24,942 nucleotides of DNA, taken from the IMG/VR virus record IMGVR_UViG_3300020419_000077, positions 1 through 24,942 of that record; one strand, written 5' to 3'. The translations under genes and the position numbers were made by a program. This document shows, one piece after another, positions 11,403 through 24,372 of this stretch. Under the pieces are notes generated by a model. That model was not told the origin of the DNA. It did not search any database and saw nothing but the letters and a program-made list of their open reading frames with translations. This stretch comes from a virus. The number at the start of each line of letters is the position of its first letter. Within the stretch, counting starts at the first letter, position 1.

Positions 11403-12766
11403 TGGCAGTTTTCTACAATAAAGAAAGAGCAAAGTATGGTAACTTAACTGGTCAGATAATTGTTTGGCCAATGGAATATGAAGGATTACCTGATGGGACT
11501 CTTAATGCAAATAATTTACCTGCTGGTTATTTAAAATGTGATGGTACAAAATACTTTGCTGAAGATTATCCACAACTAGCATCTATATGTGGTGTGGGTG
11601 ATAACTGTAAGTTTATTAGAAAGAATAATGATCTAACAAACTTTGATACGTTAACTGACTCACAGTTCATGGTTCCTGATCTTGGATCTAAGTATCCTGA
11701 ACCAACTTCAGGTGCTAACTCAGGATTATATAATAATATAAGATTAGATAATGCATTAGGTACAGAGGTTAGTAGATCTGGTATTGGTATTGAAGCAGTC
11801 TCTGCTATTGGTGAGAATGTTAGAATAGATTATAGTGGATCTATTTCAGTACCAAGTCAAGAGATTGATATTAGAGGTAAACCCTCTTGGTCATATGCTG
11901 GTGCAACACACCGTACAGATAGTGAAGGTGCTGAAGAGAATACTATTCATCCACACTCACATTTCCACTCTGCTGTAAGAGCAAGAAACTTAGCAACAAC
12001 TGAGACTAATACTAATTCACCTCAACCTATGGGGCAACTTGGTAAAAGAAATGCTTCTACCATTCCTATTCAGGATTGGTTAGATGGAACTACAAATAGT
12101 AGTGGAATAGCAGGATCAGGACAACAACCTTGCTTTGCTATAGATAAATGGTCTCCAGGTTCAGGTGGTGGTGCAACATCAACACAAGGTCCACAGGGTA
12201 CTATCTATTGGGGTCACTGCATATATGGTGCTGGTGATCAATACACATATAACTGTATATTAAATTCAACAATGGGTCCTATTAACAGAGGAACACTTGC
12301 TGGTTCTGCTGATGGATCTAACATAGCACGTTATAGAAACGTTGTACAATTATTATTTGTTTGTATTCCAGGTGGCGGTGCTGTTTCTAATGATACTATA
12401 ACAGTGAATCCAACATACATTCAAGGTGCTCAGGGTGTTCCTGAAGATTTTCTTGGAAATAGTTTATATGATGTATTACCACTACAAGCAAATGATTCAG
12501 TAGTTACTGGTCGTGCGACAACTGACCTAGAAAATACTACAACAGATACAGTAGAATTACCACGGGAGGGAGGAATTGATCCTACCATACATAATCACCG
12601 CATCGATTTGGAGAAAGGTGACCATAACTATCAGGTTAAGACAAATGCTATCGTCATTCCACCTGAAAACTTACAAACAACTATGACTATTGGAGCAGAC
12701 TCATCAGTTTCAATAGATAGTGCATGTGCTCCTTTTATTGTAATGGAATACTTAATTAAGATCTAA
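11402..12766 (+). CDS. Tail-collar-domain fibre protein B (454 aa)
   Basis: The collar-type N-terminal domain is seen as GQIIVWPMEY (residues about 17-26), LPAGYLKCDGTKYFAEDYPQL (39-59) and FMVPDLGSKYPEP (89-101). The middle carries clustered histidines (HPHSHFHSAV) and the C-terminal part has IHNHRIDLEKGDHNYQVKTN, then FIVMEYLIKI at the end. It starts at the TAATG junction with protein A and ends in the same way before protein C, so the three are translated as a coupled series. It has the same general architecture as its neighbours but low sequence identity outside the collar signature and the C-terminal tail. It is likely a virion fibre or adhesin subunit; receptor unknown. Confidence 0.78.
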   Translation: MAVFYNKERAKYGNLTGQIIVWPMEYEGLPDGTLNANNLPAGYLKCDGTKYFAEDYPQLASICGVGDNCKFIRKNNDLTNFDTLTDSQFMVPDLGSKYPEPTSGANSGLYNNIRLDNALGTEVSRSGIGIEAVSAIGENVRIDYSGSISVPSQEIDIRGKPSWSYAGATHRTDSEGAEENTIHPHSHFHSAVRARNLATTETNTNSPQPMGQLGKRNASTIPIQDWLDGTTNSSGIAGSGQQPCFAIDKWSPGSGGGATSTQGPQGTIYWGHCIYGAGDQYTYNCILNSTMGPINRGTLAGSADGSNIARYRNVVQLLFVCIPGGGAVSNDTITVNPTYIQGAQGVPEDFLGNSLYDVLPLQANDSVVTGRATTDLENTTTDTVELPREGGIDPTIHNHRIDLEKGDHNYQVKTNAIVIPPENLQTTMTIGADSSVSIDSACAPFIVMEYLIKI

Positions 12767-17829: not shown

Positions 17830-18026
17830 AGAAATTAGAAAACCCATATCTTTTAAAAGATAAGTTCATGATGCCAGGTTTTGTTACTAAAGAACCTTAT
17901 GGTGAATGGGCTGCTGTCCCTGTTGCAGGTAGACATAACAGATATATGGTCATACACAATGGTGAAATGCTCAAAGCATGCAACTATCAAGTTGCTTATA
18001 ATCTTATGATGAAACATTATAAATGA
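17802..18026 (+). CDS. Hypothetical small basic protein (74 aa)
   Basis: The N-terminus MAKRARPNLEKLENPYLL is basic; the rest (FGF-free, with GEWAAVPVAGRHNRYMVIHNG and a terminal NLMMKHYK) looks like a compact alpha/beta domain. No family recognised. It overlaps the previous gene by 28 nt in another frame and its TGA overlaps the methyltransferase ATG (ATGA). The coupling to the methyltransferase is what supports it as real. A weak GGTGA lies about 8 nt before the ATG. DNA or RNA binding is possible from the charge but not shown. Confidence 0.6.
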   Translation: MAKRARPNLEKLENPYLLKDKFMMPGFVTKEPYGEWAAVPVAGRHNRYMVIHNGEMLKACNYQVAYNLMMKHYK

Positions 18027-18952
18027 GAGATACTATATTATTTGGTGACTGTCGTGATACTATTCCAACAATCACTGAGAGACCACGTATGTGTGTCACA
18101 TCTCCACCTTATTATGGTTTAAGAAACTATGGTGATGAAGAGAATCAAATAGGTCAAGAGCAAACACCAGAAGAATTTGTTGATAACTTAGTACAAGTAT
18201 TCAGAGAGGTGAAGAATGTACTTGCAGATGATGGTACACTATGGTTAAACATTGGTGATTCATATTATAACTACAGACCAGGTAAAGGTCAGTCATATCC
18301 TAAACAATCTGTATCAAAGACTAAACAAGATTTACCAGATAAGTGCAACAAACGAGGTAACAAACTAGAAGGATTGAAAGAGAAGGATCTCATTGGTATA
18401 CCTTGGATGCTTGCATTTGCATTACGTGCTGATGGATGGTATCTAAGACAAGATATTATTTGGAACAAACCAAATCCAATGCCAGAGTCAGTCAGAGATA
18501 GATGTACTAAATCACATGAGTACATATTTCTATTAAGTAAAAGTAAAAAATATTATTATAACAATGAAGCAATCAAAGAACCAGCAAAAGATTGGGGAAC
18601 AAGAGATCGCACTAAAGGTAAGTACCACAATCCTGGCACTGGCCTGGCTCCTCATAGTGGGTTATCCAAGTCTTATCCTACAAAAAACAAACGGTCTGTT
18701 TGGTCAGTAACTAATAAACCATACAAGGGTGCTCATTTTGCAGTGTATCCACCTGATCTTATTGAACCTTGCATTCTAGCAGGATCTGAAGAGGGTGACA
18801 TTATACTTGACCCATTCATGGGATCAGGTACTACTGCGATGGTTGCCAAGAAACATAATCGTAACTATATTGGATGTGAATTGCACGAGGAGTATGCCAG
18901 TTTACAAACTGACCGTATTCGCACCATTCCAAACAAATTACCGTTATACTAA
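18023..18952 (+). CDS. DNA methyltransferase 1, beta class (TSPPY)
   Basis: A site-specific amino-methyltransferase using S-adenosylmethionine. Catalytic motif IV is TSPPYYGLR (residues 26-34), and the SAM-binding motif DPFMGSGTT (263-271) is followed by NYIGCELHEEY. Motif IV before motif I is the beta-class order. TSPPY is most often seen in N4-cytosine enzymes, but some N6-adenine enzymes share it, so the target base is undecided. The middle WNKPNPMPESVRDRCTKSHE and SVWSVTNKPYKGAHFAVYPP are typical of the family; the segment between them should hold the recognition region. The length of 309 aa is normal. It starts in an ATGA overlap with the preceding gene. No cognate restriction enzyme is adjacent apart from the HNH gene downstream. 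The likely role is protection or marking of phage DNA. Confidence 0.9.
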   Translation: MRDTILFGDCRDTIPTITERPRMCVTSPPYYGLRNYGDEENQIGQEQTPEEFVDNLVQVFREVKNVLADDGTLWLNIGDSYYNYRPGKGQSYPKQSVSKTKQDLPDKCNKRGNKLEGLKEKDLIGIPWMLAFALRADGWYLRQDIIWNKPNPMPESVRDRCTKSHEYIFLLSKSKKYYYNNEAIKEPAKDWGTRDRTKGKYHNPGTGLAPHSGLSKSYPTKNKRSVWSVTNKPYKGAHFAVYPPDLIEPCILAGSEEGDIILDPFMGSGTTAMVAKKHNRNYIGCELHEEYASLQTDRIRTIPNKLPLY

Positions 18953-18955
18953 TAA

Positions 18956-19160
18956 TGTTGAGAGGAACTAATGTGGTTCCTATGCCCCAAACCTACTGAC
19001 TAGTCTGACTTAGAAGCAGACACATGACCGTTGGTAGAAACCTATTACTGCACATGACAGATGGTTGAAAGTGGTGGGGGTTCAGGTGTAAGCGATTCCC
19101 ATAGGGTAAATTTGGGCAACTGGGTGAAACCTAGATCATTGCCCCACGTTCCTCTCAACA
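18956..19160 (+). ncRNA. Candidate structured RNA (~205 nt)
   Basis: There is no good open frame between the methyltransferase stop and the next ATG, but strong pairing. A 13-bp perfect closing stem joins 18956-18968 (tgttgagaggaac) and 19148-19160. Inside are: an 8-bp helix (two G-U) 18993-19000/19030-19037 holding a GTCTG/CAGAC hairpin (19003-19007/19017-19021), and an arm 19114-19119/19139-19144 (gggcaa/ttgccc) stacked on 19120-19125/19129-19134 with a GAA loop and a 4-nt bulge. The middle contains a 20-nt direct repeat. I see no promoter, so it may be read through from the methyltransferase. It does not match tRNA, tmRNA, RNase P or group I intron core order as I know them. The strand is assumed from the neighbours. 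Confidence 0.6.
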
Positions 19161-19182
19161 CCCCATTATATTACAAAGGTAC

Positions 19183-19353
19183 ATGACTCAAGTCAAACTC
19201 GGTTCTAACGTCAAATCAAAGATCCACGACGATCTTACTGGTCACGTTGTAGTATATCAGCCACTAAACAACTATGCTGTTATAATGACTGACGTTGTAG
19301 AATATGAAATGATGACAGTTGAGTGCTACCTATCTGACTTGGAGGTTGCATGA
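19183..19353 (+). CDS. Hypothetical 56-aa protein, KOW/SH3-like start
   Basis: This frame runs from ATG at 19183, preceded by an AAAGG Shine-Dalgarno (19175-19179), to a TGA overlapping the HNH start (ATGA). The product begins MTQVKLGSNVKSKIHDDLTG and continues HVVVYQPLNNYAVIMTD. The pattern of V-x-x-G-x-x-V-K, a turn, then T-G-x-V-V-x-Y resembles the small SH3/KOW-type barrels common in T4-like phages (typically KLGDKVKDKITGFEG). No function is known. It sits between the structured RNA and the HNH gene and is probably co-translated with the latter. Confidence 0.7.
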   Translation: MTQVKLGSNVKSKIHDDLTGHVVVYQPLNNYAVIMTDVVEYEMMTVECYLSDLEVA

Positions 19354-21665: not shown

Positions 21666-21685
21666 TATGTGTCACACACTTCCAC

Positions 21686-21737
21686 GCATCGGGTATAAAA
21701 TCCCTTATAATAAGAACATACACAACCAAAGGAACAC
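21686..21737 (+). promoter_or_regulatory. Sigma70-like promoter and leader, module copy 2
   Basis: TATAAT at 21706-21711 with GCAT at 21686-21689, the same 16-bp distance as in copy 1, though the -35 hexamer (ACGCAT) is poor. The leader AAGAACATA-CACAACC ends in AAAGGAACAC (21728-21737), nearly identical to copy 1. It serves the gene at 21742. Confidence 0.65.
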
Positions 21738-21741
21738 TATC

Positions 21742-22140
21742 ATGACCGTAGCAGAAAGAACTCAAAACCTATGCACAGCACTTGAGAATGATTACAAAGA
21801 GCATTCAAGACAAATGTATCTACGTAACCCAAGTGACTACAGTCTCAAGCAATTGAATGCAATTGATGATGGTAGTGCTAAACTCACTAAGTTTAGAATC
21901 CAGAGTGGTCGCAAGTATTACAAACTAATACAACAGGACTATGATACATTTCAAAATAGAAATGAGTATCGTGACGGTGGTGTACATGCATTTGTAGACA
22001 AGAAGACTGGTGAAGTATTCAAACCAGCAGGTTGGCAAGGACCAGCAAAGTATGCTAGATATAACCTATTGGATGAAGCATCTTATCATACAGCACTCGG
22101 AAGAGCAGACTGGGCAGGTGGTTATCTCTATTTGAGATAG
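21742..22140 (+). CDS. Conserved T4-like marine phage protein (132 aa)
   Basis: The start is set at ATG 21742, eight bases after the AAAGGA of the leader; an in-frame ATG at 21667 lies upstream of the -10 box and cannot be used from this promoter. The C-terminal half, GVHAFVDKKTGEVFKPAGWQ then GPAKYARYNLLDE and ADWAGGYLYLR, is of a kind I recognise from many cyanophage hypothetical proteins. The N-terminal half is helical (RTQNLCTALENDYKEHSRQM). The function is unknown; there is no catalytic motif I can defend. This is one of the better links of the window to cyanomyoviruses. Confidence 0.8.
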   Translation: MTVAERTQNLCTALENDYKEHSRQMYLRNPSDYSLKQLNAIDDGSAKLTKFRIQSGRKYYKLIQQDYDTFQNRNEYRDGGVHAFVDKKTGEVFKPAGWQGPAKYARYNLLDEASYHTALGRADWAGGYLYLR

Positions 22141-22165
22141 TCATCAGGGCAAGGATCTATGGTTG

Positions 22166-22182
22166 TCTCTGTTCAGCAGAGA
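22166..22182 (+). other. Intergenic hairpin
   Basis: TCTCTG (22166-22171) pairs with CAGAGA (22177-22182) around a TTCAG loop, 26 nt after a stop codon and 26 nt before a promoter. No T-run follows, so termination is not assured; it may be an mRNA 3'-end stabiliser. Confidence 0.35.
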
Positions 22183-22207
22183 AATTACGTCCTGTAAGTC
22201 CCACACC

Positions 22208-24315: not shown

Positions 24316-24346
24316 AAAACCCTTGACAAATCCAGTCAGGGGTTTT
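24316..24346 (+). terminator. Rho-independent terminator overlapping a promoter
   Basis: A 12-bp stem (24316-24327 with 24335-24346, one G-U pair), AAAACCCTTGAC / GTCAGGGGTTTT, with a 7-nt loop and a T-tract forming the 3' side. It ends the transcript of the 53-aa gene. The 5' strand contains the -35 of the next promoter. Confidence 0.85.
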
Positions 24347-24351
24347 ATAAT
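24323..24351 (+). promoter_or_regulatory. Perfect-consensus sigma70 promoter
   Basis: TTGACA (24323-24328), a 17-bp spacer, TATAAT (24346-24351): full consensus. The -35 lies inside the 5' arm of the terminator stem and the -10 begins at its last T. The expected start is near 24358, just after the TAAGGAGA sequence (24352-24359); translation starts at ATG 24373. Confidence 0.85.
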
Positions 24352-24372
24352 GTAAGGAGATATAATAGTATT

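Follow-up and report, generated by a model that had tools for sequence, protein, structure and literature searches.

The virus record IMGVR_UViG_3300020419_000077 of IMG/VR was analyzed over a stretch of 24,942 nucleotides (nt), hereafter the window. Judging from compensatory base changes in its homologues, the region at positions 18956-19160 specifies a structured RNA that occurs in marine T4-like cyanophages. The 205 nt consist of two nested RNA elements, B inside A, an arrangement that is not visible from the single sequence. The RNA almost certainly belongs to a structured, modular family, and the comparison of copies indicates that the RNA domains of this family recombine and nest in one another.

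The interval was first noticed in a reading of the window alone (the original prediction), which described a structured RNA candidate without a coding frame. The closing stem lies exactly where it had been placed, with 13 of 13 P1 pairs at 18956-18968/19148-19160, and the two inner arms described are real helices (18993-19000/19030-19037 and 19114-19118/19140-19144). The interval is indeed uncovered by genes: the flanking open reading frames (ORFs) span 18023-18952 and 19183-19353, and the sole frame entering it is a 58-codon GTG frame that extends to 18971. The assertion that the pairing is far beyond chance fails for the lone sequence, which has a folding energy z-score of -1.86, with 7 of 200 shuffles equally good. 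An inverted repeat of 13 perfect base pairs, spanning no more than 260 nt, was also present in 8 of 60 shuffled windows; the stem alone is unremarkable. Because the single sequence is unexceptional among shuffles, the case for a structured RNA rests on the homologues, and it is their compensatory changes that bear out the claim of an unassigned structured RNA. The features of the window are as follows.

18956-19160, + strand: whole RNA, core A with module B in the P3 arm (from blastn homologues, covariation of A and helix coordinates).
18945-18950, + strand: -10 box TATACT of the promoter, 6 nt ahead of the GTTGAG of the stem and overlapping the last part of the methyltransferase gene; the RNA is predicted to start at about 18957.
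18956-18968, + strand: 5' strand of the P1 closing helix, paired with 19148-19160; covaries.
19148-19160, + strand: 3' strand of the P1 closing helix, paired with 18956-18968.
18973-18976, + strand: 5' strand of P1b, GTGG, paired with CCAC at 19144-19147; GUG/CAC, ACG/CGU and AAAG/CUUU are alternatives in other copies.
18979-18984, + strand: 5' strand of P2, CCTATG, paired with CATAGG at 19100-19105; covaries.
18985-18988, + strand: 5' strand of P3, CCCC, base of the exchangeable arm, paired with GGGG at 19076-19079.
18990-19066, + strand: module B as inserted, with conserved center 18993-19037 and hairpin GACTTAGAAGC; stand-alone elsewhere; covaries.
19080-19099, + strand: near-invariant 20-nt bulge of core A, GTTCAGGTGTAAGCGATTCC, from sequence conservation among copies.
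19114-19144, + strand: P4/P5 arm with a conserved GGTGAAACC-type hairpin, from covariation.
22148-22201, + strand: module C, stand-alone, between the DUF7717 gene and the next gene (37-sequence covariation; 88.9 bits to model R3, this copy being itself among the sequences used to build that model).

Owing to a 94-nt insert, the R1 model aligns well to only the 3' half of the window copy. The covariance model R2 (module B) was not used, its structure being shifted by one column.

The original prediction recognized no known class in this RNA, and the searches agree. No Rfam family was found in the window, and none matched 18900-19220 even at E ≤ 10. With Rfam release 15, the gathering score was reached neither in the window nor in 132 kb of 17 related loci; only weak sub-threshold matches appeared. 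The models of the known cyanophage motifs wcaG, manA, PhotoRC-II and glnA were unmatched in the window and the 17 related loci, and the ARAGORN search of the window for transfer RNA (tRNA) cloverleaves and transfer-messenger RNA was empty. A group I or II intron had likewise not been recognized; none was matched in Rfam, and the RNA sits between genes, not within one. The same Rfam searches speak against the suggested ribozyme remnant as far as known ribozymes are concerned.

Distant blastn matches to pieces of the region were found in P-SSM2, P-SSM5, P-SSM7, S-SSM4, S-SSM6b and single-cell marine viruses. The matching pieces belong to two units. Core A, the outer one (18956-18988 and 19076-19160), matches P-SSM2 and others; B, the inner one (about 18990-19066), stands alone in P-SSM7, S-SSM4 and many contigs. 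An exact core-A 22-mer is present in at least 119 viral contig stretches of IMG/VR; it had no match in 84,980 bacterial and archaeal genomes, and the pattern of a third unit, module C, likewise had none in the bacterial and archaeal genome scan. Copy numbers from the collection scans are lower bounds. The core-A loci were first gathered by the exact 22-mer, which biases conservation, and a different motif was used afterwards as a correction.

For 35 copies with a bare P3 loop, RNAalifold gave a single fold with double changes at 12 pairs. The 26-pair structure has 99.4% standard pairs and 112 double-change cells versus 34 in shuffles, which are not phylogeny-aware; when the partners were slid out of register, the double-change cells fell to 3 to 6. 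P2 is fully paired in each of the 105 copies examined, its sequence taking six forms (CTACTG/CAGTAG, CCTATG/CATAGG, CTCTAG/CTAGAG, CCATAG/CTATGG, CCTACG/CGTAGG and CTCATG/CATGAG), and two loci (L311 and L316) have an entirely different P1 sequence that is perfectly paired. Modules B and C covary independently, each on its own alignment (37 sequences for C). The original prediction had named covariation among homologues as its test; by pair counts against the shuffles, the compensatory base changes of a structured non-coding RNA are present in these alignments. The bulge of core A reads exactly GUUCAGGUGUAAGCGAUUCC in 91 of the 108 copies among the matches listed, which were retrieved by a motif excluding the bulge, and differs by one or a few bases in the other 17. 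In P1 and P1b of core A, G-U pairs outnumber A-C mismatches by 55 to 3, and neighboring genes are co-directional with the RNA in 583 cases versus 18 opposite. These two asymmetries therefore indicate that the conserved RNA is that of the + strand.

The P3 arm is the site of exchange. Among 150 distinct copies, 90 different arms of 14-262 nt were found, and their replacement leaves the core undisturbed. The arms include B (the combination in the window), C and other recurrent modules labeled D, F, G, I, O, P and Q, and many of them are modules also found alone or inside other parent RNAs. Module C (52 nt) has fixed limits and occurs free (62 distinct contexts), in the B hairpin (18), in the B 3' arm (5), in the A arm (4) and in the D loop (3), with a mean identity between contexts of 93.5-100%; the free class holds the copies missed by the context patterns, and nested C is possibly undercounted. 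The C copy in the window is identical to that of P-SSM2 over 54 nt. D was found inside B hairpins and C inside D. Nesting also goes deeper: one locus (L036) has A carrying B carrying D, and another (L046) has A carrying B with C in both B sites. In AG-345-E15, A carries C, and in P-SSM2, B has an insert; nesting in isolate and single-cell genomes is therefore not merely a product of metagenome assembly. Islands of such elements reach 1.29 kb, as in a single-cell cyanophage (L008, 2014-3307), where the island is ORF-free and holds many unrecognized structured elements.

A few observations on the modules stand apart. The L021 copy was not accepted as a case of deep nesting, since P1 is missing and the copy resembles a chimera of B and A. 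On its minus strand (about 11570-11970), the 5' half of a stand-alone B is joined to the 3' half of A, by recombination or assembly error. An element K (GAGGAGATGGATGTGCCTC...), seen at L002 2305-2360, L006 2655-2710 and in L249, has hairpin changes on both sides and is also in frame as MDVPLGSxPKKELTS; it may be an RNA, a leader peptide or both. Two likenesses to 23S rRNA were dropped: that of B (CUUAGAAGCAG...GUAAU) to the GTPase center, as the apical loop of B is expanded by other modules in many copies, and that of C to domain IV, which was a resemblance by eye only.

In copies of the main type (GTTGAG), a TATAAT-like box lies exactly 6 nt before the stem in 48 of 59 distinct upstream sequences (0.5 expected), and in the GTGAG type a box lies directly at the stem in 8 of 27 (0.16 expected). 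Given the -10 box at this fixed 6-nt spacing, transcription probably starts at the base of P1; the promoter that the RNA would thus have at its own start is read from the sequence, not from a mapped start. Stand-alone B copies are often preceded by TTGACA and a -10 box, the latter 8-10 nt upstream, and some A copies have the terminator of the upstream gene before the promoter. In the window, a consensus scan gave no good -35 element. The start of the RNA is thus well predicted and its 3' end is not. Copies with a GTGAG stem (L006, L015 and L018) have in common, ahead of core A, a box of another kind (like GGGGGGACGCATAAAGTGTCCTTA), which may belong to a second type of promoter. Elsewhere in the window, a compact terminator followed by a TTGACA...TATAAT promoter was seen by eye at 24318-24352.

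Among encoded proteins, the closest neighbors of the RNAs are methyltransferases, the products of short ORFs and DUF7717. Genes for N6/N4 DNA methyltransferases lie within 1.5 kb of 33 of 141 core-A copies, and those for DUF7717 proteins within 1.5 kb of 46 of the 141. The window encodes a DUF7717 (PF24835) protein at 21667-22140. Its AlphaFold model is confident (predicted local distance difference test score of 95) and had no fold match in the PDB, and structural relatives occur in other phages, some of them non-cyanophage; DUF7717 was consequently dropped as a candidate protein partner. A conserved 37-amino-acid ORF (MSPNFAEFLLDTTNNGNEIL...), followed by a terminator, comes after many RNA islands (L016 at about 11440; L048, L249 and others), and some B copies adjoin tRNA genes (S-SSM4).

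Here, we propose how the RNA may work. As the comparison of copies shows, helices P1, P1b, P2, P4 and P5 hold the near-invariant 20-nt bulge, and the P3 arm accepts self-contained modules that also exist alone or inside other parents. A host-type sigma-70 polymerase, as far as the sequence allows us to infer, would start at the base of P1 and thereby produce an RNA with its 5' end sealed in a helix. This RNA would be stable and act as RNA, with core A as a scaffold. A protein of the infected cell, or a further RNA in it, may bind at the internal loops that are invariant in A, B and C, and the exchange of arms would alter the set of bound partners. As a whole (modular RNA, sigma-70 start and binding-platform role), we put this forward tentatively as the best explanation, with somewhat less than even confidence; the binding-platform role taken by itself is open to considerable doubt. 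In a wider form, marine cyanophages would have in these RNAs an equivalent of proteins with shuffled domains: trans-acting RNAs built on shared scaffolds from dozens of modules, each functional by itself and able to nest recursively, which recombination would have diversified so that they engage different factors of the host or of rival phages. This, too, we regard as conceivable and quite uncertain.

Some points weigh against the proposal. The binding role is deduced from conservation alone, and DUF7717, the most often co-located family among those tested, lends by its structural model no support as a partner. Only 22 of 127 copies have a T-run after P1, and many may therefore represent the beginning of a transcript that extends further. 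The scarcity of T-runs favors the main rival to the binding platform, a 5'-terminal stabilizing leader that would head a phage early transcript and, through its sealed 5' end, shield the downstream mRNA from host RNase E, an enzyme induced by some cyanophages. The predicted transcription start at the base of P1 fits such a role, and the next ORF, which begins a median of 63 nt past the core and is of many kinds (43 different starts among 85 copies), suits a general leader. Induction of RNase E expression by phage is also reported for Prochlorococcus MED4, in a study that further cites antisense RNA protecting phage transcripts (PMC9692554). We nevertheless consider the leader unlikely: a plain hairpin would suffice, and neither the shuffling of modules nor the near-invariance of the 20-nt bulge nor the conservation of the loops in B and C would be explained. 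In addition, some copies are preceded by other modules rather than by a promoter, and a terminator follows some B elements. The variety of first downstream genes (the same 43 starts in 85 copies), together with the presence of one module in unrelated parents and positions, is ill-suited to a gene-specific sensor. Cis-regulatory leaders of particular phage genes, whether riboswitches or protein-binding leaders like wcaG, manA, glnA and PhotoRC-II, are clearly unlikely for this reason, even though the known cyanophage RNAs are described as cis-regulatory, the RNAs here lie on the same strand as the neighboring genes, and one short ORF (MSPNF...) comes first behind the RNA in 13 of 85 copies.

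The near-identical modules at different places and the pattern of insertion into loops would also be expected of palindromic DNA elements, either recombination hotspots or mobile hairpins of the miniature inverted-repeat transposable element or repetitive extragenic palindrome type, inserting into one another and having no role as RNA. This is improbable in view of the strand asymmetry (55 G-U versus 3 A-C), the promoter on one strand at a fixed spacing and the near-invariant unpaired bulge. An unsystematic inspection of the C flanks by eye revealed no constant termini or target duplications. The compact fold and the near-invariant bulge might suggest a catalytic RNA or an intron remnant, which is very improbable given that no Rfam intron or ribozyme was matched at gathering or relaxed thresholds and that the RNA is positioned between genes, not inside one. 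Lastly, the original prediction had raised a guide-like RNA for the nearby HNH nuclease, which would here be of the omega type. The nuclease candidate is a 137-amino-acid ORF that begins 190 nt downstream and shows weak similarity to HNH proteins of PHROG. Just 5 of 141 A, 6 of 108 B and 0 of 116 C copies have a homologue of this ORF within 1.5 kb, and no IscB-type protein was noticed among the recurrent neighbor clusters listed. Lacking co-occurrence, the guide reading is largely refuted and retains scarcely any probability.

If the modules are functional domains, they would form a natural kit of RNA parts that can be exchanged, in which the evolution of multi-domain RNAs could be studied directly. 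The elements are carried by the cultured laboratory phages P-SSM2, P-SSM7 and S-SSM4, in which expression and function can be tested now. They also point to a wide annotation gap in phages of the ocean's main phototrophs, as the loci scanned contain ORF-free islands that lack Rfam annotation. Nothing describing these RNAs was found in the open-access PMC literature, and the cyanophage RNAs named there (wcaG, manA, PhotoRC-II, glnA, CfrI and abiF) are separate families.

Like the present RNAs, wcaG (RF01761), manA (RF01745), PhotoRC-II (RF01717) and glnA (RF01739) are structured, belong to marine T4-like cyanophages and were found by comparative genomics (PMC2864571, PMC9964418). Unlike them, the present RNAs share and nest parts, have diverse downstream genes and gave no match to these four Rfam families in the window or in the 17 related loci. 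The stable RNAs C and D of T4 are small, stable RNAs of a T4-type phage whose function is unknown. Their likeness to the present family is that of small RNAs of T4-type phages, to which the place of some B copies beside tRNA genes may be added, and we know of no modular exchange in RNAs C and D. GOLLD, ROOL and OLE are likewise structured bacterial or phage RNAs without known function, and they are large (PMC12286853). The present RNAs differ from these three in their size of about 100-400 nt, their interchangeable modules and the lack of an Rfam match. Twintrons are composite, with one element nested in another. IStrons are composite as well: an RNA or mobile element is attached to a second one or sits within it (PMC4227781). 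In contrast to twintrons and IStrons, no intron core was recognized here (no Rfam match), and the parent helices stay paired when a module is inserted into a hairpin arm. We know of no other case in which modules are exchanged, with nesting, among different parent RNAs on such a scale. What would be new is the architecture and not a demonstrated function: structured RNAs are usually described as families of one architecture, whereas here one and the same module occurs free, in loops and in several parents.
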